In this document: in pieces, positions 8,896-39,250 of the stretch | Numbering within the stretch: the first letter of the stretch is position 1 | Layout: every line of letters begins with the position of its first letter | Assembly (NCBI RefSeq): GCF_000001735.4 | Contig: NC_003070.9 | Span: 10,906,001 to 10,970,000, forward strand | Origin: Arabidopsis thaliana | Taxonomy: Eukaryota; Streptophyta; Magnoliopsida; Brassicales; Brassicaceae | Reading direction: 5' to 3' | Length of the DNA: 64,000 bases | Position numbers and translations under genes: made by a program | Notes under the pieces: generated by a model | The model's database searches: none | Told to the model about the DNA's origin: nothing | Seen by the model: only the letters and a program-made list of their open reading frames with translations

Positions 8896-8985
8896 TTTAC
8901 ACTAACACCTTTTATTCACACAAGTATATGTGTATCGTGTTTTACACTAACACCTTTTATTCACACAAGTATATGTGTATCGTGT
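8896..8985. repeat. Perfect 2 x 45 bp tandem duplication
   Basis: The 45-bp unit 8896-8940, starting TTTACACTAACACC, is repeated exactly at 8941-8985. It ends six bases before the target duplication of the adjacent hAT element, so it may be a local slippage or repair product. Confidence 0.93.
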
Positions 8986-8990
8986 GTAAA

Positions 8991-9981
8991 GATCTTGGTA
9001 GAGATGTTAATGATGGGTTAAAACCCACTGGGTATTCAAAACCCACATAAAATTTTAAGTTCATAAATCTATTTTTTCTGAAAAAAAAATACAGGTTTAA
9101 AATGGGTTGGGTACCCAAATAAATAAAACCCATATGGGTTTACCTCATTGGGTAATGGGTACCTACGGGTTTTTTAAGTCCTTTTTCAGGTGAATCAACA
9201 TTTTCTCGTCAAAAAAGATTTCACATTTTTTCGCCAAAACCGCGATTTAACAGTTTACCGCCAAAAAAGACATTCAACATTTACCCGCTAAAAAAGACAT
9301 TCAACATTTTTCCGCCAAAAACGACAATCAACATTTTCCCGCCAAAACGCAATTCAACATTTTCCCGCCAAAAACGACATTCAATATTTTCTCGCCAAAA
9401 CGCAATTCAACATTTTCCCGCCAAAAACGACATTCAATATTTTCCCGCCAAAACGCAATTCAACATTTTTCCGCCAAAAACGCGATTCAACATTTTTCGC
9501 CAAAAATGATTTCACATTTTCCCGCTAAAAACGCAATTTAACATTTTTCCGCCAAAACCGACATTCAACATTTTCCCGCCAAAAAGGATTTCACATTTTC
9601 CGATCAAAAACACAATTTTAACATTTTTCCGCCAAAAATGATATTCAACATTTTTCCGCCAAAAACACAATTCAACCTTTTTCTCATCAAATATATATGT
9701 AATACAGAAAATAAATACAATTTAAAATATATTTATAAGCAAATTATAGATACAACATACATATAATAGTATATTAGCAGTTAAAATAAACTCTAAGAAA
9801 ATGACAAACACCAAGTTGGGTACCCACGGGTAGTCTCAAAACAATCAGTTTTTTTCGGGCTTTACCCACTAAATCAAAAACCCATCTGGGTTTTCTAAAG
9901 TTGGGTTTTTGGTGGGCAGGTTTATTTTGGGTTCAGGTCGGGTTGGGCTTTTTTACCCACCACAACATCTCTAGATCTTGG
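8991..9981. mobile_element. Non-autonomous hAT-type transposon with E2F-site array
   Basis: The element spans 8999-9973 (975 bp) and is bounded by a perfect 8-bp target site duplication, GATCTTGG, at 8991-8998 and 9974-9981. Its ends are inverted: TAGAGATGTT at the left, AACATCTCTA at the right, then imperfectly matched subterminal sequence (TGGGTTAAAA against TGGGTAAAAA). An 8-bp duplication with TAGAGATG-type ends is the hAT signature. There is no transposase frame. Much of the interior (about 9188-9690) is a tandem array described separately. The subterminal parts carry repeated TGGGTA/TACCCA motifs, possible transposase-binding repeats. The perfect duplication suggests a fairly recent insertion. 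Confidence 0.9.
9188..9690 (+). repeat. Array of about 19 units of 26-27 bp, each with a TTTTCCCGCC-like core
   Basis: Units read approximately CAACATTTTCCCGCC followed by AAAA(C/A)CGAC/GCAATT. At least five copies keep the full TTTTCCCGCC core (near 9334, 9360, 9413, 9438, 9570). Others are variants such as TTTTTCCGCC or TTTTCTCGCC. TTTCCCGCC matches the consensus E2F/DP binding site (TTTSSCGC). The array lies wholly inside the hAT element. Confidence 0.88.
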
Positions 9982-9984
9982 AGT

Positions 9985-10420
9985 ACATATACCATCCAGT
10001 TTAGTTAGAATATATTATTATCCGGTTCAATTGACTGGTTAAGTTAGAACAGTTCTATATAAGAAAATTGTTTTACACTTTACTCTTTAAGAAATAAGAA
10101 TCGAAAATCTTAACAAACTTTTCTTAATAGCTCAGCTCAATTCTTATTTTGTAATATGGTATCAGAGTCAGGTTTCAATGTGTCTCGATTGTAGACCATC
10201 CGTGGATGTCCAGTCCCACAAACTTCACGTTTCAGATGTCCAGTCCTGAGCGTGAGGGGGTGTATTAGAATATGTCCTACATCGAGATTTTGATAATTTA
10301 TGGAGCAATATATAAGTATGTGGTAAACCTCAACTCTTGAGCTAGCTTTTGGGTATGAGGTAGACTCATACTAATATGAAATCATATTTTTATCATCTGT
10401 TAGAAAACACTAGTCCTTTT
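9985..10420 (+). mobile_element. TRIM-like miniature LTR retrotransposon remnant
   Basis: TGGTATCAGAGTCAGG at 10157-10172 resembles the initiator-tRNA-Met primer-binding site of plant copia and TRIM elements. About 90 bp on, the purine tract GAGCGTGAGGGGG (ending 10260) is followed directly by TGTATTAGAATATGTCC, a typical 3' LTR start. The very short interior lacks coding sequence, as in TRIM elements. I could not match a left LTR to the right one, so the outer borders are approximate and the element may be composite or broken. Confidence 0.5.
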
Positions 10421-12240
10421 AGGAAATACCAAAATCTACAGGATGTAAACATAAGGGATAGTGGAGAATCTATTTAAAGTGAAATGGAGTTGGTAAATTG
10501 AGGCTTAGTACTACATAGGTCAGTTTGTTGACTTCTAAAGTGGCTTTGCATTCACAAGTATGAATGGTCAAGCTTAGCGTTTGGTGGTGCGATCAATAAA
10601 AGATTAATTATCATTAGTATTAATGTATTATAGTATCACTATACATCTCTTATTAAGTGCTATACATCACAGATACCCACAAAACAATTTGTAACTCAAT
10701 TTAAAGGTAGTAATTTTTTATAAAGAGATTTCATAAATCTAAATGAAAAGTTAAAGGACAGAAAGTAATCAAAGTTGAACCAAACAACCATAAGAAAGAA
10801 GGGAATCTGGTTATTAACATAGCTAAATTTGTTAGTTAGTGTATTTTCTAGAATCCAATATTTATATATATATATATATATATAGCTAAATAATTGATGA
10901 TTTTTGAAAGAAAATTTTCCTAAATAAAACTATTACTATACCTCCCCAACATCAATCCGGCTAATAGTTACTTAATTTCATGCTTAATTGTTGATAAAAT
11001 AATATTTTGTATAAGTTATACATACGATCAAAACTAATAATACATATAAGGGTTTTTAATATATAACAACGCCATTCTAAAAAAATTGAGGCGACAACAA
11101 ATATATTCTACGGACTATATAGTTTTGAAGGTTAAAACCTATATATACTTGCTAGGAAAAACCAATTTATAATATTTCGAATGGTGTAAGTTTTTTTTCC
11201 AAGTAATTAAGTAAGAGTTGTAGGCTTTCTATTTATGGATCATCCACTATTTTTCTACTTGGCCACTCACTATAAACGTAAAACATATTAAACGACCAAA
11301 AGTAATTTAGATTCTATCTTAAGAGTTAAGACTACACTGTTACATAAAATATTTTCCACTCTTAAATTTTCTTTCTTTGCTAAAAAATTTAAAGTTGACA
11401 AAAATATCTAAAATAAACCATAATAACTATACCATTTAGTTACAGAATATTTTTGATTGAGTAGGATTATGCAACTTAAGACAACTCTCTAAGATTTATT
11501 GTATATTTTATTCAAATATAAATTGAAGAAAATATATTAAATTTTTGAGCCACAATTACTGGAGATGGTGGTGTCAGTATCTTTGAAATAATGAAGAAAT
11601 TGTCCCCTCTAAAGTTAAAACCCACAAATTATGACCTACTTTCAAACACCATATATTTCTCCATAAACTTGGGGTCTTAATCAATTAATTATAAAAACAG
11701 ATTGTACATTAACATTTTCCTTTTTTCATTGACACGAAAATTTTAGAAAGAGGTTATCCAATGTCAATAATGTTTCATTTCAGATTCGGCTCAAAAATAG
11801 AAAAATATACAAATAATTTGAATTAAATATAATAATGACTTTTTCTTCGAACTCACAGTACATAAGGCAACAAGTGTCAGATTTGATGCATAGAGATAAT
11901 AGCATTTTTCGTAGTTTTTGTTAAATATAAGTATAATACAACATTCCAAATTTCTATTACAGATTTTTAACTGGATCGGATAATTAGATCGGCATATTTT
12001 TCAAGCTTTCAGCAAAAACGATCACCCTAAAATTATTTTTTTTGATGGAATGATTTGTTTGAGGATATTGAATATATACACTCCAATTCCAAAAAGGCTA
12101 TAAAGTATGAATTAAACAATCAAGTAGTAATAGCCATTATTAATGATTCGAAAATGGTAAAGAAATAATTAACACTAAACAAGAGTCAAAAGAACATGAC
12201 GTAAATATTACATCAACTTTACGTATAAACCCCTTCCCTC
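10421..12240. other. AT-rich intergenic DNA upstream of the BBE-like gene
   Basis: No coding region or transposon end could be supported. A (TA)n microsatellite lies at about 10861-10884. The 3' end of the stretch holds the promoter of the gene at 12321. Confidence 0.6.
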
Positions 12241-12244
12241 TCTC

Positions 12245-14441
<2,197 letters not shown>

Positions 14442-15100
14442 ATTTGGAGTTAGACAAGAATAAGAGTGTGGTTTAAGATTTCTCTTAGGAAAGACTTGTT
14501 ACTTGTGTTTTTGTGCTTTTAAACATGGCCAACACACTTGTATTTCAAAATTGTTATCCAATCTAATCCCTTATGAGGTCTTAGAAGTAATGGCAAATTT
14601 GGCTAAACCAAATCAAATCATATTTGCCTATAAATGATGATAGTTTGGTTTAATGGCAAACTCCCTATTGTTCCACCACAATTCCCTATTTAAACACACC
14701 TCTTTTAAACAATAGTGATAGGATACTACCTTGTAGAAAATATGTATCTAGAAGGAGATATTCATCTTCCTAATTTCCTCCAATCTTTATATTTCATCCC
14801 AAAGAAAGAAAAAAATGATTGTAATAGGAAATAGAGAACCAATTTTGTACAGACAAACTACGGATTGACCCTGTATACCGTATACTGTAAGACGATTTGT
14901 TTTTTAAAATTTGTTATTTTTAACATATATGATTATGTGTTATACTATATAGTAACTCGCGGTATACCGCAAGCCTATATTTTTATTTTCAAAATTTACA
15001 TTTTTGTTTTTAAGATGATATATAAATATATGCTATTATTTTGTTTAATTTAAATGTATGGTACACCGCAAGACGATATTTTGTAACTAAAATTTTAAAA
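14442..15100. other. 3' flank and Helitron-like sequence debris
   Basis: After the BBE-like gene the sequence carries three versions of a GGTATACCGC-type motif (near 14873, 14957, 15058). They are related to the palindrome at Helitron 3' ends, one of which is seen again at 25445. The motif AACTCGCGGTATACCGCAAG at 14953 is the best. No full element border could be set, and there is no gene. Confidence 0.35.
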
Positions 15101-15409
15101 TTTTAAGTTGTATTTGTTTTGTTAATATTGTTTATTTTGTCTAGTGTTTAAGATTGTATAAGTGTAATTGATTGTTAATTTCACCCGAATATACAATCAT
15201 GTATTAATATCTACCTAAATCCTTCAATTTTAGGATTTAAACTGTAGTATAAAGTTCAAATGTGTTGTCCAAAAAAAAAAAAGTTCAAATGTTTATAATG
15301 TTTAAACTTCTTTTAAAAGAATCAAAATGTGTTTCTTTAAAAAATAAGTTGAAGTTGTATTTGTTTTGTTAATATTGTTTGTTTTATTTAGTGCTTAACA
15401 TTGTCTAAG

Positions 15410-16019
15410 TTAGATGCATTGTCAGCTCCTCATTCGTTGTTCCATGTTGTGGACAAGAGCATTTCTTCTCAAGCCTCACCGTATTCTGCTCAATAACACT
15501 CTTATCCTGTTGTTGGGGCTCAATAACACTCTTATGCAGATGATGTTGCAGTACGTAGGTGAGTCATTTTTTATGTACAAGGGAATACATATAATAACTA
15601 AAGTGAATGCAGATTCCGTAAAGAATGATTGGTCAAACGATACCTTCTTGGGTACTTGGGATAAGTTAGGAGAGTAATCATCCAATCTGCAAGGGGAATG
15701 AAGTCATAGGGTTTAAGGAAAAATTGGTCTTTTCACCAAGGATGATCTCAAGACCGGGTGGTACCAGTACGAGTACCAAAGAAACTCGATATCTTTTGAA
15801 GAAATGGTTGTATGTCATCTAGTATACGACGAAGAGAACCTTGCCATTGAGGATACTGAAGCCATTGAGGATACTGAGAATGAAGCCGAGGAGGGCCTTA
15901 ACGTTGAAAATTTTGGGACTGTTCACGTAGATGATTTGCTTGGTCAGTATGAAAACCTGGACATTTTTCGTGGTGATGAGCAGTTCCTTATCGGTCTAAG
16001 GGAATGTCGACGTCGATGA
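15410..16019 (+). pseudogene. NAC-domain gene relic 1
   Basis: Pieces of a NAC-type DNA-binding domain can be read if frames are switched. Around 15695-15830 the text GNEVIGFKEKLVF, then TKDDLKTGWYQYEYQ, then EEMVVCHLVYDEE follows NAC subdomains C to E (viGfkktLvFy, tdWimhEYrl, dewvlCri). An acidic tail ends at a TGA at 16019. Upstream, the phrase HSYPVVGAQ*HSYADD contains TAA twice where CAA (Gln) would fit, and there are frameshifts around 15670-15745. It is non-functional as a NAC protein. Relic 2 at 22.1 kb shares the unusual GW(Y/H)QYE motif, so the two derive from the same subfamily. The upstream limit is uncertain. Confidence 0.62.
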
Positions 16020-16413
16020 TCGACTTGATCAGACCGGAAAAGATCTGGCTTGATGGATGGATGATTTGCTCTATTACTAAATACTCCAAAGATATATAGT
16101 TGGTACAAGTGTGTTTGTGATTTAGTTTTTTTTTTTAGTTTGAGACTTTGATACTTGTCCAAACTCTGTTTCTTTCTTTTTGATCAATTTGGGAAAAGAT
16201 CTTGCTCTTTAATAAAACATTCACTAGATGATGAGTGTATTAAGGTAAATACTTCACTTGATGTTGCGTCTAAACCAACTCTTATACTATGTGGGAAAGA
16301 TGTCTTTGTCATAGGGATTTAAATTGGAGTTGCGCCTTTCCTTATTATTCTGATCCCGAGATAAAGAATAGCTCGTCTTTTTCGCCATCATTCCTACATA
16401 ATGATTCCATATA

Positions 16414-17825
16414 GGCCCTGTCTGTTTCATCATTTATCATTTCCATTCAGATGATCCACTTACATGATTCATTTGAATGATACATCTGAATGATGTTTGT
16501 TTTACTATTTGTAATTTAATCTAAATGATGCATTTAAATGAATCTTTATTTGTTTGATCATTTTGTAGTTCATCCATATTCTCATTTAGATAAAAATGAC
16601 TAAAATACCCATGCTTTTATTTTGACAAATGACAAATATTCAACATCATTACCCATTATCAATATCAAACATATTGGCGGGAAAATATGATTTTACGGTT
16701 TTAGCAAAATACCGTTTACGGTTTTGGCGGAAAAATATGATTTTGCGGTTTCGCCGAGAATACACGATTTTACGGTTTTGGCGGTAAAATATGATTTTGC
16801 GATTTTGGTGGGAAAACATGTGTTTGCGGTTTTGGCGGGAAAACATAATTTTACGGATTTGCGAAAACATGATTTTAGGGTTTTGGCGGGAAAACATGAT
16901 TTTATGGTTTTGACGGGAAAAACATGATTTTGCGGTTATGGCGGGAAAAACATGATTTTGCGGTTTTGGCGGGAAAAATATGATTTTGCGGTTTTGACGG
17001 GATTTTGCGGTTTTGGCGGGAAACATGATTTTACGGTTTTGCGGAAAAATATGATTTTATGATTTTGGCGGGAAAACATGATTTTGCTGTTTTGGCGTAA
17101 AAATAAGATTTTTGCGGTTTTGACGAAAAATAAATTTTGCGGTTCCGGCGGGAAAATATGATTTTTGCGGTTTTGGCAAAAAAACATGATTTTGCGGTTT
17201 TGGCGAAAAATATAATCTTATGATTTTGACGGGAAAACATGATTTTACGGTTATGGTGAGAAAATATGATTTTGCAATTTTGGTGGGAAAACATGATTTT
17301 GCAGTTTTGGCGGAAAAACATAATATTGCCATTTTGGCGAGAAAATATAATTTAGTGGTTTCGGCATAAAAATATAGTTCTATGGTTTTAGGTGGAATAC
17401 CGCTTTCTATAATTTTACATCAAAAATTATGATTTTGCGGTTTTTGGCAAAAAAACGCAATTCCACGATTTTACGATTATGACATAAAATAATAATCCGT
17501 GATTTCATGATTTTTTAGAGTTTTTTTTTGTTTCAATATATAATTTTAAAAATATTATATAAGAAATCTATAAAAAAAAATATTATTTAAATTATGATTA
17601 TAAACAAGAGTATATCTGTCTTTTGTTATTTTTGAATGAACCATCTCCATCCAAATGGTTCAAACAAATTCATCCAAATGAATTTCATTAATTTGCCTAA
17701 ATTTTGAAACTCATTCAGATGTATCATCCAGATGATTCATCCAAATGCTTGTTAAATTGTCATAAACAAACATCATTTTCCATCTCCATTTGGATGGATC
17801 ATTTGGATGGAGAAACAAACAGGCC
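16414..17825. mobile_element. TIR transposon (PIF/Harbinger-like) with E2F-site array
   Basis: Left end GGCCCTGTCTGTTTC (16414) and right end GAAACAAACAGGCC (to 17825) are imperfect inverted repeats flanked on both sides by ATA (16411-16413 and 17826-17828). Subterminal regions on both sides repeat ATGGATGATCCA-like motifs in both orientations, typical of transposase-binding arrays. GGCC(C)TGTTTGTTT ends and a 3-bp duplication resemble plant PIF/Harbinger (Tourist) elements, though ATA is not the usual TWA, so the class is tentative. There is no transposase. The centre, 16670-17345, is a tandem array listed separately. Confidence 0.7.
16670..17345 (-). repeat. Array of about 25 units of 27-28 bp with TTTTCCCGCC-like core (reverse strand)
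   Basis: On the plus strand the unit is approximately GGCGGGAAAACATGATTTTGC followed by GGTTTT. At least eight copies keep GGCGGGAAA, the reverse complement of the E2F consensus TTTCCCGCC. Spacing measured at 16890, 16917, 16945 and 16973 is 27-28 bp. A spacing of about three times nine makes overlapping, strongly repetitive minus-strand open frames, which are artefacts. The unit has the same length and the same two conserved blocks (CAAAA...TTTTCCCGC) as the array at 9188-9690. Confidence 0.88.
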
Positions 17826-17918
17826 ATAGTCACCGGAGATATGAACACAATTAATAACACACATCTCGTCAGTCATAAGATAACAATTAACAATAAACTG
17901 GCTTGTTCAACTCTTCTC

Positions 17919-19702
17919 TTACATTAGGATCCTTGACATGATAGGATCCTTAAAACGGGCAATACTCTCTACATGTTGAGGTGCGATGCGGACATGACAT
18001 TCACCCTCGTCTACGAATCCGGAACAGCGCCTAAATTCTTCATCGTCTCCAATTCCTAAGAGCCTAACTCTTCTAATGTTTGTTGTTTCAACATTATAGT
18101 AGAAAATGTAGAAGGTCGATTATCGAGTGACAACAACTTTGGAGCCATAATGATCTCACCAGCCTTGTTGGTGCCTGGAAAAGACATTTGGATATCCCCA
18201 ACATAATCCCACGCGACAGAGGAGGGAAACACACATGTTTGCTTTGACCATTCATGTCTCTCAACGTCTTCTAGAATCCATAAATCAAAACTATGGAAAC
18301 GACCATAAGGGAATCTCACAATGGACCTAGCTTCCCTTTGTATTCTATGAATATTGCTTCATACCCCCATTGTAAAACATCATTAGGAGCTTTGATAAAA
18401 CTTATCTTCTCAGACCTAACATCAAAACACACCAAAACTGGATTCATAGGTGGGGTTGGGCTATAAGCACCATAGTAGACAAAACCATCGATGCTTACTC
18501 CCACAGTTACCGGGCTAAAAGGCGCATTGGTAACTTCAATGTGTCTCCATCCTTGACCACCTCCCCCTAGTGTTAAGACCTTGTGCTCTAGATTTCTCTT
18601 TCTCGACGGCACAGATACAGACAATGCTTTTTGTTGATCATCAATCGGATCGTATCCCACGAATCGAGTGTTAACAGGAAACTTAGGACATCTCCATCAG
18701 TGAGATACCTTCTTGGTTTCTAAAAAAAAAAAAGATATTAGTATTTTAATAAATATTAGTTATATAATTAAATTTTAACAATAAAATAATATTTGACCAA
18801 TAGATGATATACAAGTGTTCTTATGGGTTTCTTAGAGTTTCTCACTTGAGAGACTAATTCTACTCTCTCTCATACTTTTTGATTATATTTTATTTTTATA
18901 TTAAACAGTTTCTCAATGAGAAACCATTGATGGAGATGGTCTTAATGACTTGCTCCGTGCTAGGGTTACATATCATGTGCCGAAATTCAGCGGTAACAGA
19001 GAGAAAGCCATGGACAGAGTCACAAGACCCTGAGTGGAAACTAAAGCTCATTTATGGTACTGCAATCTCGAAATGAGGTACCAAAGAAGAAGCATAGTCT
19101 CCCTCATGTGAAAACGTGAAGAAGAAGATAAGCTTATCCTTAGGCTTATTGAAAAAACCATTACTCAAAGCGACTACAAACCGTGATTGCTTCGAGGACA
19201 TAGTGAAGAAGGAATCGATGAATCTTTGGCTTCCGATGATGGAAGACCACATTTTAGAGACGCGTTTGAAATTCGTAAGAGACTTGGCAGACAATCTAGT
19301 AAGTATAACCATCTTTAGATCAAAAGGGAGCGAATCTAAATCTATCTCACTTGGGTTTGTGTCTTTCTCATTACCATCTCCAAAGCAAACCTCAGATGAT
19401 TCGACTCGACAAAGGAGTTTCTTCAACCTAAACTTGGAAGGCAATCTAACCGTCTTTAGATCAACAGGGTTCGGATCTAACTTACTTGGTCTGTTGCAGA
19501 ACCTGTCCTTGCCTTTTACGGCGGTTCCCGACGAAACCCAGAATTCGACTCGGAGAAGATTGGATTTGAATCGCAAACACCTAGATTTGAGCGACAACCG
19601 CAAAGAGCTAGATGTGTATTCGACAAAGGAGGTTCCTCTTTTTTTAAATTGGGTCTTCTTCTTCAAGGAGCTTTTTTTTTTTTTCGACACAAAATCCGAC
19701 AA
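17919..19702 (-). pseudogene. F-box/FBA gene broken by a MITE, a nonsense codon and two frameshifts
   Basis: Reading down from 19702, an unusual ~115-aa basic N-terminal extension leads into an F-box (LPFDLKMVILTRLSAKSL, WSSIIGSQRFIDSFF) and then an F-box-associated domain. Homology to the intact gene at 26713 continues to about 17960; the frame closes at a TAA at 17919-17921. Defects seen: TAA in place of a sense codon near 19052; a 256-bp MITE (18686-18941) inside the ICNPSTEQVIKFP segment; a one-base loss near 18330 (KGKLGPL* where KGKLASIVR is expected); and another frameshift near 18115 before FYIFYYNVET. Removing the MITE and one TTA copy restores the frame exactly at that point. It might be annotated as two short genes, but the alignment to its paralogue supports one decayed gene of the SCF substrate-receptor family. 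Confidence 0.8.
18683..18944. mobile_element. 256-bp MITE (Tourist-like) inserted in the F-box pseudogene
   Basis: The element spans 18686-18941 with TTA target duplications at 18683-18685 and 18942-18944. Ends are inverted: GGACATCTCCATCA on the left; the right end reads, in reverse complement, GACCATCTCCATCAATGG. It is AT-rich inside and non-coding. The TTA duplication fits Tourist/PIF-Harbinger MITEs. Confidence 0.85.
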
Positions 19703-36825: not shown

Positions 36826-38225
36826 TTAGAGACGAATCTTCTTGTTTCCTGCTTCTTCTGTCTTGTCTTGTTCTACTTCTACTACTCTCTTTGTTGCAAC
36901 CATTCTCACCTAACAAAACACAACCAAAAAGCACAATGTTTCAAAAAACGTTTCAAGAATCAATTACAAGCACCTCAAAAGGCAAAAGAATTGTATATAA
37001 TCTTACAGTTTCAGCTACAGAATCATCAGGGTATTCAACTACAATGATCTCAGGCTTTTGCTGCAAAAAGGGGTAAAAGCACTTTATTATTATAAAGAAA
37101 GTAGCTAGTACATTTTAAGAGAAAGAGAGAGATAAGATTTAACATTTACTCACATTGAAAGAAGAACTCGCAGTTGATTCAGTTTCAGCAGTTGCTGCAC
37201 GGTTCCTCCGCTGGTAAACTCGAGGAGGAACAATCCGGTTAACTTGCGGAGGAACCTCGTTAGCTGGACGAGGAACAACTCGGTTAACTTGCGGAGGAAC
37301 CTCGTTAACTTGACGAGGAACAACTTGGTAAAATGTCGAAGGATCTTGGTTAACTTGAGGAACTCCGTTACGACAAGGAACAAGGTGGTAAGTTTGAGGA
37401 AGATCCTTGTTAACTTGAGGAATAGGAACAACTTGGTAACTTCGCGGACCATCTTGGTTATCTTGAGGAGGAGCTACCCCGTTACCTTGAGGAGGAACAA
37501 TCCGGTAAACTTGCGGAGGACGAGCTTGGTTCTCTGGACGAACCCCATAAGTTCTTCCAAACTAAACCAAAAACAAACATTATAGTTATTTGAAGAAATT
37601 TACAAACAGTATTTAAATCATAAGAGAAAATCAAAGACATTACAGTTGGAATATTGATATGTTTGCACTCAGAACATTTCACAGTTTTATCACGTTTTTG
37701 ATGAACGACGCTCACTGGACATCCGCCACACACAAGCATTGTAAAATTGTCTAAAGAACATTTTTATGAAACAAAAGATGAGATTAGACAAATCAGAACC
37801 ATAGATCCAATTTTTGAACTAAACAAAAAAAAATTTAAGTTTCTTGATTTTTTTCAAGAACACATACTTGGCACAGGACGTGAGATAGTACAACAAGGAC
37901 ATCTCGCTGTTTTTGCTGTGCTGTTTCTAAAAGATAAGTTAGCTTTGCAGCTTTTACATGCAAACTTATCCGCGATCCAGTTTCCTATAGTAATAACCAA
38001 ATCAAAATGTTAAAAAATAGTTCGAGAAAATAAAAAAAAATCTATAACAAAAGAGATTTGTTCTTTATATATTTTACCGAGAGTAGGAGTAAATTGAACG
38101 TGACAATTTGGACATTCGATTATTTTTCCTCCAGTATCAAGCTCAGCAAAAACAATTCTTTCGGTACGTTTCGCTAGGTAATAGTTAATTCTTTCTTCCA
38201 GTATAGCTCTTTCATGGTCTTTCAT
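36826..38225 (-). CDS. LSD1-type zinc-finger protein with repetitive Pro/Gln/Val tail
   Basis: Six coding exons, 38225-38078, 37984-37868, 37750-37644, 37561-37154, 37060-37007 and 36909-36826, give 305 aa in a continuous frame. A non-coding first exon ends at 38317 (AGCAAG|GTAAAA) and its acceptor lies four bases before the ATG. Residues 38-124 hold C-x2-C pairs (C38/C41, C59/C62, C78/C80-81). They end in a clear LSD1-like finger, C96GGC...C114SEC followed by KHINIP, compared with the CxxC...RCxxCxxIN of LSD1/LOL proteins. Residues 125-260 repeat units like VPPQVNRVVPRPANE. The C-terminus is acidic/basic. LSD1 fingers act in plant cell-death and transcriptional regulation by protein binding. 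The tail and the number of fingers are unlike LSD1 itself. The last intron (37006-36910) is my choice; reading through it would end at a TGA instead. Confidence 0.75.
37175..37535 (-). repeat. In-frame coding repeats of the LSD1-type protein tail
   Basis: Within exon 4 the motif (V/L)PPQVN(R/E)(V/I)VP is repeated about nine times with variable spacing of roughly 39-54 bp. Adjacent copies around 37225-37310 are nearly identical in bases (GAGGTTCCTCCGCAAGTTAA twice), which points to recent unit expansion. Confidence 0.75.
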
Positions 38226-38377: not shown

Positions 38378-39250
38378 GGTCTTTTAAGTAGCCACGAACA
38401 GTTACGAAGGTACGTTTTTTTTCATCTCTTCATTTATAAGATTTACTTTTAAATACATTTAACATTTTTTTGTTTTAAAGGGTTTTAAAATACATTAAGT
38501 TGTATATATTTATATCCATTTTCGATAATTTCCCTAAGAGGATGAATAGACGAATCGGTGCAAGAGAAGATGTTGTCGATATTAGGCGATTCGGAAAATT
38601 CATCGAAGATGTTGTCGATATTAGGCGATTCGGAAAATTCATCGAACCGATGGTAGTCAAGAACGACAATCATATAAGATTAGAATTAATTCTAAAGAAG
38701 GAAGACAATGTACTTTGATTCATTAGCGAATAAGGCTTTCATTGCAAAAGCATTGTGTATATTCATTTCTTTACCACTCATGGTTAGGATTAATAGACAT
38801 TCTCGCTGATTGTTTGGTTTGATATGAAATTATGAATAAATGTCTTATACGTTACATCATTTTATTGTAACTCTTGATTTACTCATTCGGTTTTATCATA
38901 GAAGTCATTTATAAAGACTTGTTTAAAGTTTTATTTATCAAATGCTTCTTACACATTCAGACCAAATCGAGAGATGTAAAATGTTCCAACGGTACATAAG
39001 ATCATATGAAATCCCTTTTGGTGGAAAAAAAAAACGAACCAGGGGAATCAAACCGCCATTTTCAAACGTTTCTAGAGTCTTTCCAGATCATAAGTCTGTT
39101 AAAAGAGTCTAAAAAAAACTGAGCAAAAGCTTGGATCATATGTACAGAGGAAAAATCCTAAGATTATTAAGAAGAAAGCAAACCAAAATCCAAACTAAAT
39201 CGAACACAAAGCAATAATTCTAATGGAGAGGGAGAATTCAGCAAATGCAG
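38378..39250. other. Intergenic DNA with a 39-bp tandem repeat
   Basis: Between the LSD1-type gene and the 3' end of CTP synthase. Apart from the repeat listed below, it is AT-rich with no recognised gene. A 72-codon plus-strand frame (38503-38718) spans the repeat but has no independent support. Confidence 0.5.
38569..38646 (+). repeat. Perfect 2 x 39 bp tandem duplication
   Basis: GATGTTGTCGATATTAGGCG... is present at 38569-38607 and repeated exactly at 38608-38646. The length is a multiple of three, so in the plus-strand frame it encodes DVVDIRRFGKFIE twice. The neighbouring bases are unusually CG-containing for intergenic DNA. Confidence 0.92.

Follow-up and report, generated by a model that had tools for sequence, protein, structure and literature searches.

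Transposable elements (TEs) of the Brassicaceae can carry motifs for E2F transcription factors. According to the passages available from one review, the carriers are mainly miniature inverted-repeat transposable elements (MITEs) of the hAT, PIF/Harbinger and Mutator-like element (MULE) types, together with Helitrons; Arabidopsis is included, and the motifs can bind E2Fa (PMC12595863). Chromatin immunoprecipitation has placed E2Fa at such TEs, and excerpts from two sources put up to 85% (PMC4110626) or 73% (PMC7956360) of the consensus E2F sites of Arabidopsis inside transposons. The latter also describes about one third of chromatin-bound RBR at TEs, most of which contain an E2F motif, and misexpression of TEs upon RBR loss (PMC7956360). 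MITEs are named as RBR targets in Arabidopsis in a further excerpt (PMC7404004). Sites for MADS-box factors have likewise been spread by transposon families, as a partial text relates (PMC6914339). Here, we describe two E2F-site arrays in a 64,000-nucleotide stretch of Arabidopsis thaliana (C1:10906001-10970000; hereafter, the window). One array lies in a hAT element and the other in a Harbinger-like element. The genome scanned comprised 119,662,809 bases in 7 contigs.

Amplification of E2F sites by Brassicaceae transposons was reportedly described by Henaff et al. in 2014 (Plant J), a study known here through reviews. This is the Brassica report that a first-pass annotation of the window had mentioned, as passages of three papers describe it (PMC12595863, PMC4110626, PMC7956360). 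The likeness lies in E2F sites placed inside hAT, PIF/Harbinger and MULE-type MITEs (PMC12595863). In the reviewing passages, neither the anatomy of tandem units nor a comparison of spacers is given, though the 2014 paper may contain them. The arrays also resemble RBR-bound TEs of Arabidopsis in their E2F motif, which the excerpts ascribe to most RBR-bound TE sequences (PMC7404004, PMC7956360). As with the MADS-box sites, in the text available, element families distribute the site of one factor (PMC6914339). In contrast to that case, each window element has 18-27 tandem units of the E2F site, and several superfamilies carry the site. A literature search by title and abstract start returned no unit-level description of these arrays, and one may be in print. 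Transposon-borne E2F sites with E2Fa and RBR binding in the Brassicaceae are already known; what we add is a unit-level test of origin, which may itself have been published.

On balance, we lean towards one explanation as a whole. The arrays would have formed by tandem amplification of a strong E2F/DP site in the interior of non-autonomous DNA transposons, with several origins and a putative role in docking E2F-DP and RBR. The parts of the window concerned are these:

8991..8998, no strand: left target-site duplication (TSD) GATCTTGG of the hAT element, exact (8/8)
8999..9973, + strand: non-autonomous hAT element, 975 bp, named hAT-A here; terminal repeats with 0 mismatches and an exact TSD
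9188..9690, + strand: E2F-site array of hAT-A, ~27-bp units of TTTTCCCGCCAAAA plus a spacer (ACGCAATTCAACA or ACGACATTCAACA)
9974..9981, no strand: right TSD GATCTTGG of the hAT element
16411..16413, no strand: left 3-bp duplication ATA of the Harbinger-like element
16414..17825, + strand (arbitrary): Harbinger-like non-autonomous element, 1412 bp; terminal repeats and a 3-bp TSD
16660..17460, - strand: E2F-site array of the Harbinger-like element, ~27-bp units of TTTTCCCGCCAAAA plus CCG(C/T)AAAATCAT(G/A), decaying toward 17460
17826..17828, no strand: right 3-bp duplication ATA of the Harbinger-like element

Tandem Repeats Finder gave both arrays a period of 27, with 18.4 copies at 9195-9681 in hAT-A and 26.2 copies at 16674-17365 in the Harbinger-like element. 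This bears out the common 26-28 bp period of the first-pass annotation. The opposite orientation holds as well, the core reading on the + strand in hAT-A and on the - strand in Harbinger. The two blocks listed as common to both arrays, CAAAA and TTTTCCCGC, are in fact one contiguous 14-mer, TTTTCCCGCCAAAA. This is an E2F site legible on either strand, fitting WTTSSCSS both ways. Allowing up to 2 mismatches, the 14-mer matches the window 34 times, 33 of them inside the two arrays, against 1.06 expected from whole-window shuffles. Similarly, 14 of the 15 window matches to TTTSSCGC lie inside the arrays (2.49 expected). The looser WTTSSCSS is found 17 times in the hAT-A array (shuffles: mean 1.86, maximum 5) and 18 times in the Harbinger array (mean 3.62, maximum 8). 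Hence, the canonical E2F site claimed for both arrays is present and enriched.

We counted 46 units in the window, 19 in hAT-A and 27 in Harbinger, with most degenerate units left out. A WTTSSCSS match on either strand persists in 24 of the 46 (12 + 12), TTTCCCGC is retained in 14 (6 + 8) and the exact 14-mer in 9 (5 + 4). About half of the window units are plausible E2F sites. The "roughly 40 potential sites" proposed earlier is therefore excessive, because degenerate units had been counted in. Variation between units is mostly C-to-T and G-to-A decay. Four overlapping open reading frames (ORFs) of 83-125 amino acids (aa) lie at 16649-17332 on the - strand. We read them as by-products of the array and not as genes, because a period of 27 is divisible by 3.

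Across the genome, the exact 14-mer occurs 1184 times (654 + 530), while its reversed control occurs 0 times. With TTTTCC 10-15 nt downstream, the counts are 731 and 0, respectively. The first-pass annotation had proposed a scan of the genome for the unit by transposon family. We assigned the first 100 of the 1184 matches, all on C1, and among these listed matches 96 fall in five transposon groups. They divide into hAT-C (60), hAT-A (17), Harbinger (10), a MULE-like group (6) and hAT-B (3), with 4 remaining. Three of these four, at C1:7725670-7725784, have hAT-C spacers where listed. A lone TTTTCCCGCCAAAA at L077:585-598 (C1:10342984), with no transposon recognised around it, is possibly an ordinary gene-regulatory E2F site. 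The names hAT-B and hAT-C are given here; exact 8-bp TSDs were seen in 4/5 and 3/6 inspected loci, respectively. Copy lists are lower bounds, with 40 candidates scored out of 177 (hAT-A), 189 (Harbinger), 89 (hAT-B), 207 (hAT-C) and 169 (MULE-like end).

To compare units, we aligned 746 of them from 38 arrays (hAT-A 20 loci, hAT-B 5, hAT-C 7 and Harbinger 6), setting aside the final incomplete unit of each array and units of fewer than 22 letters. The core consensus is identical in all four families. The spacer consensus is ACGCAATTCAACA in hAT-A, CTGTAAAATTGTG in hAT-B, ACGTAAACCCGTGA in hAT-C and CCGCAAAATCATG in Harbinger. Outside the core, the spacers of the window pair, hAT-A and Harbinger, are alike only at chance level. 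Consensus shuffles gave P 0.27. The unit distance was 9.85 against 9.92 +/- 0.40, with 40.5% of 200 permutations as close. Among permuted spacer profiles, 2635/4000 scored as high, and rotations and reversals gave 8/25 (5/25 for the window copies alone). The first-pass annotation had said that an alignment no better than chance outside the core would tell against its "same unit"; for the window pair, the alignment is no better than with permuted spacers. The claim thus stands for core and period and fails for the spacers in four tests, and we rejected a single shared unit beyond the core. As the spacers are at chance, exchange between hAT-A and Harbinger is unsupported. The other origin offered, independent capture or selection, fits the common core.

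A different result was obtained for Harbinger and hAT-B, whose spacers are alike in all four tests (P 0.0002; 0/200; 0/4000; 0/25). The last figure holds with hAT-B loci L069-L071 only. Exchange or common descent of the array between the Harbinger family and hAT-B is supported. The comparison of Harbinger with hAT-C is mixed (P 0.068; 1/200; 261/4000; 2/25) and that of hAT-B with hAT-C suggestive (P 0.016; 7% of 200; 70/4000; 2/27). With ties shared, the nearest unit in another locus belongs to the same family for 384.7/390 units of hAT-A, 52.8/55 of hAT-B, 111.2/112 of hAT-C and 187.3/189 of Harbinger. Units group by their own family; hence, recent exchange is not seen. Long BLAST matches between the arrays of different families (about 65-75% identity) were not accepted as homology, because a common 14-bp core at the same period alone gives about 64% by our own arithmetic.

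The label of the fifth group, MULE-like (L010, L021, L074 and relatives), describes the look of the end sequence only. E2F sites lie 143-214 bp (L010), 137-173 bp (L021) and 159-212 bp (L074) from the terminal inverted repeat (TIR)-like end. In L075 and L076 the TIR-like end was not found, and a few further sites occur elsewhere in these loci. We aligned 21 end segments, namely L010 and 20 picked from the copies listed. All 21 have 4-10 WTTSSCSS matches and 17 have the exact 14-mer. The surroundings of the sites in these segments are A/T-rich and differ from the hAT and Harbinger spacers. A palindromic E2F site, TTTTGGCGCCAAAA, is found at 44 places in the genome (reversed control, 2). At three loci, L102-L104, it sits in 32-33-bp tandem arrays of 2.4-3.4 copies, and the adjoining ends belong, by eye, to the MULE-like group. 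These arrays (L102:626-734, L103:615-692 and L104:598-705) pair TTTTCCCGCC-type sites with palindromic TTTTGGCGCCAAAA sites.

The window hAT element has TIRs TAGAGATGTT and AACATCTCTA with 0 mismatches at both ends, the queries having been taken from the window copy itself. Among 15 array-bearing hAT-A copies with both TIRs, window included, the TSD at the element edges is 8/8 in 9, 7/8 in 5 and 6/8 in 1. The genome holds at least 51 hAT-A matches. L057 was assigned to the family by its array alone, as no TIR was found; L056, which probably represents the 3' end cut off from the L045 copy, was left out. Five relatives lack the array (L053, L054, L055, L058 and L059) and have 190-250 bp of the 3' end in common at 84-92% identity. 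None of these five matches the core, even with 2 mismatches allowed. L055 carries the last 244 bp of the window element at 90% and contains an ORF that encodes a hAT dimerisation domain (PF05699, E 1.5e-27). The 391-aa ORF of L058 had no Pfam match, and L059 has both end motifs with a poor TSD (5/8). Because of the TSDs, the matching ends and the L055 relative, 8999-9973 is a non-autonomous hAT element.

L054 is 97% identical to L055 over 758 bp. Read together with L081, it is an array-less 1818-bp relative with an exact 8-bp TSD, TTTCTCTT, on either side. Hence, the array is dispensable for mobility, and we rejected the idea that it is needed. For the same reason, the earlier suggestion that the array aids replication-coupled amplification found no support.

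PIF/Harbinger elements typically produce a 3-bp duplication, TWA. In this family the duplication is ATA on both sides in the window, TAA in L061 and TTA in L065, the last two read by eye; on inspection, L062 and L064 had no clear 3-bp duplication. At least 45 Harbinger-like matches occur in the genome. An ORF of L105, a relative without the array, weakly matches Myb_DNA-bind_3 (Myb/SANT; E 6e-5, 24.4 bits, cut-off 23.6). The element at 16414-17825 is likely a PIF/Harbinger element. With an 8-bp TSD (GATCTTGG) at one element and a 3-bp TSD (ATA) at the other, the two different sets of element ends first described are upheld.

Around the two elements, a perfect 45-bp direct duplication at 8896-8985 (2.0 copies, 100%) stops 5 bp short of the hAT TSD. 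By eye, a berberine-bridge-like gene lies between the elements (12321-14441), NAC-like fragments lie next to the Harbinger-like element (15414-16060) and an F-box-like gene lies past it (18056-19702). Further tandem repeats at 37213-37520 (period 45/48) and 38566-38646 (period 39) have higher GC and are perhaps coding.

Independent assembly around the same site seems the simplest reading of these sequences. Arrays would have arisen more than once: in hAT-A, in a lineage common to the Harbinger family and hAT-B, and in the MULE-like group. In each case, an E2F site may have been enlarged through slippage or unequal exchange, then copied along with the element. In dividing cells, the putative docking arrays most likely bind E2F-DP together with RBR, gathering both onto the element. 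Such a cell-cycle-linked platform might either open the element around S phase or let RBR silence it. At the scale of the genome, the arrays could act as a buffer for E2F. Whether the gain is to the element (S-phase access) or to the host (RBR silencing, E2F buffering), sequence cannot tell. That one and the same site recurs amid unrelated spacers speaks for a function, with the caveat that three of the five groups came from the core search. A more specific version, which we hold tentatively, has at least three independent origins (hAT-A; Harbinger/hAT-B; MULE-like, with a 32-33-bp unit built on a palindromic site) and a transfer of one array type between Harbinger and hAT. Unrelated transposons would then converge repeatedly on the E2F-DP/RBR complex of the host, presumably because a tie to the S-phase regulator benefits the element.

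Several points weigh against repeated origin and docking. In the window, 22 of the 46 units no longer fit the E2F consensus. The core in hAT-B, hAT-C and the MULE-like group is there partly by construction, because all three were found via the core. Selection on the C/G columns of the core within arrays is not robust. In the available part of one source, E2FA binding is placed with euchromatic chromatin states past transcription starts (PMC12867329). At the two window copies, E2F/RBR binding and its effect are inferred. Finally, spacer likeness summed over the six family pairs is 38 against 24.4 +/- 3.4, a value reached in 0/5000 shuffles. This excess, chiefly from Harbinger/hAT-B, favours some common history. 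It can be taken further, to a single capture of a ~27-bp E2F array early in Brassicaceae history and its later spread through hAT and Harbinger families via nested insertion, template switching or conversion. In hAT-A, the spacer would since have drifted past recognition while the core was kept. This agrees with a core common to four families whose periods hardly differ (27 or 28), and with the related spacers of Harbinger and hAT-B, the suggestive likeness of hAT-B to hAT-C and the mixed one of Harbinger to hAT-C. We nevertheless consider a single ancient origin unlikely. Compared with each of the other three families, the hAT-A spacers are at chance (2899/4000, 1669/4000 and 2635/4000). Moreover, the units cluster by family, and the MULE-like group has a different unit and period.

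Two other explanations concern what the repeated site is for. AAACGG is the Ac-type transposase-binding motif, and in the consensus of hAT-A and hAT-C, as in some units of hAT-B, AAAACG comes after the core. It is very improbable that the arrays are transposase-binding sites, however. The array is central in the window hAT element, 189 and 283 bp from the ends, the five relatives checked have similar ends and no array, one of them with an exact TSD, and a Harbinger-type transposase is not expected to share a hAT motif. Alternatively, the arrays could be neutral minisatellites, passive products of slippage in non-coding transposon interiors, with the E2F site of little consequence to the element. 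The C-to-T and G-to-A decay and the exact TSD of array-less L054 are consistent with this, and so is part of the mismatch data. With one consensus per family, C/G positions mismatch significantly less in the core than in the spacer in hAT-A, hAT-C and Harbinger, and not in hAT-B. Once unit sub-types are allowed, this advantage persists in hAT-A for K=2 and turns round for K=3; in Harbinger it turns round for K=2 and disappears for K=3, and in hAT-B it is reversed. Since its sign changes with sub-types in hAT-A and Harbinger, we did not accept the difference as proof of selection. On the other side, the hAT-C core (3 loci) is better kept at K=1, 2 and 3. At A/T columns, too, mismatches are fewer in the core than in the spacer for hAT-A, hAT-B and hAT-C, though slippage in T/A runs may hide mismatches. 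The same 14-mer recurs amid unrelated spacers, and E2Fa or RBR binding is reported at such TEs in the passages available (PMC4110626, PMC7404004, PMC7956360). We regard purely neutral arrays as rather improbable.

We return to E2F-site arrays of several origins. If the arrays are convergent, and not the product of one capture, docking of E2F and RBR would have been gained repeatedly by several transposon groups. A descriptive fact would then become a testable question, namely what benefit E2F/RBR docking brings to the element or the host.

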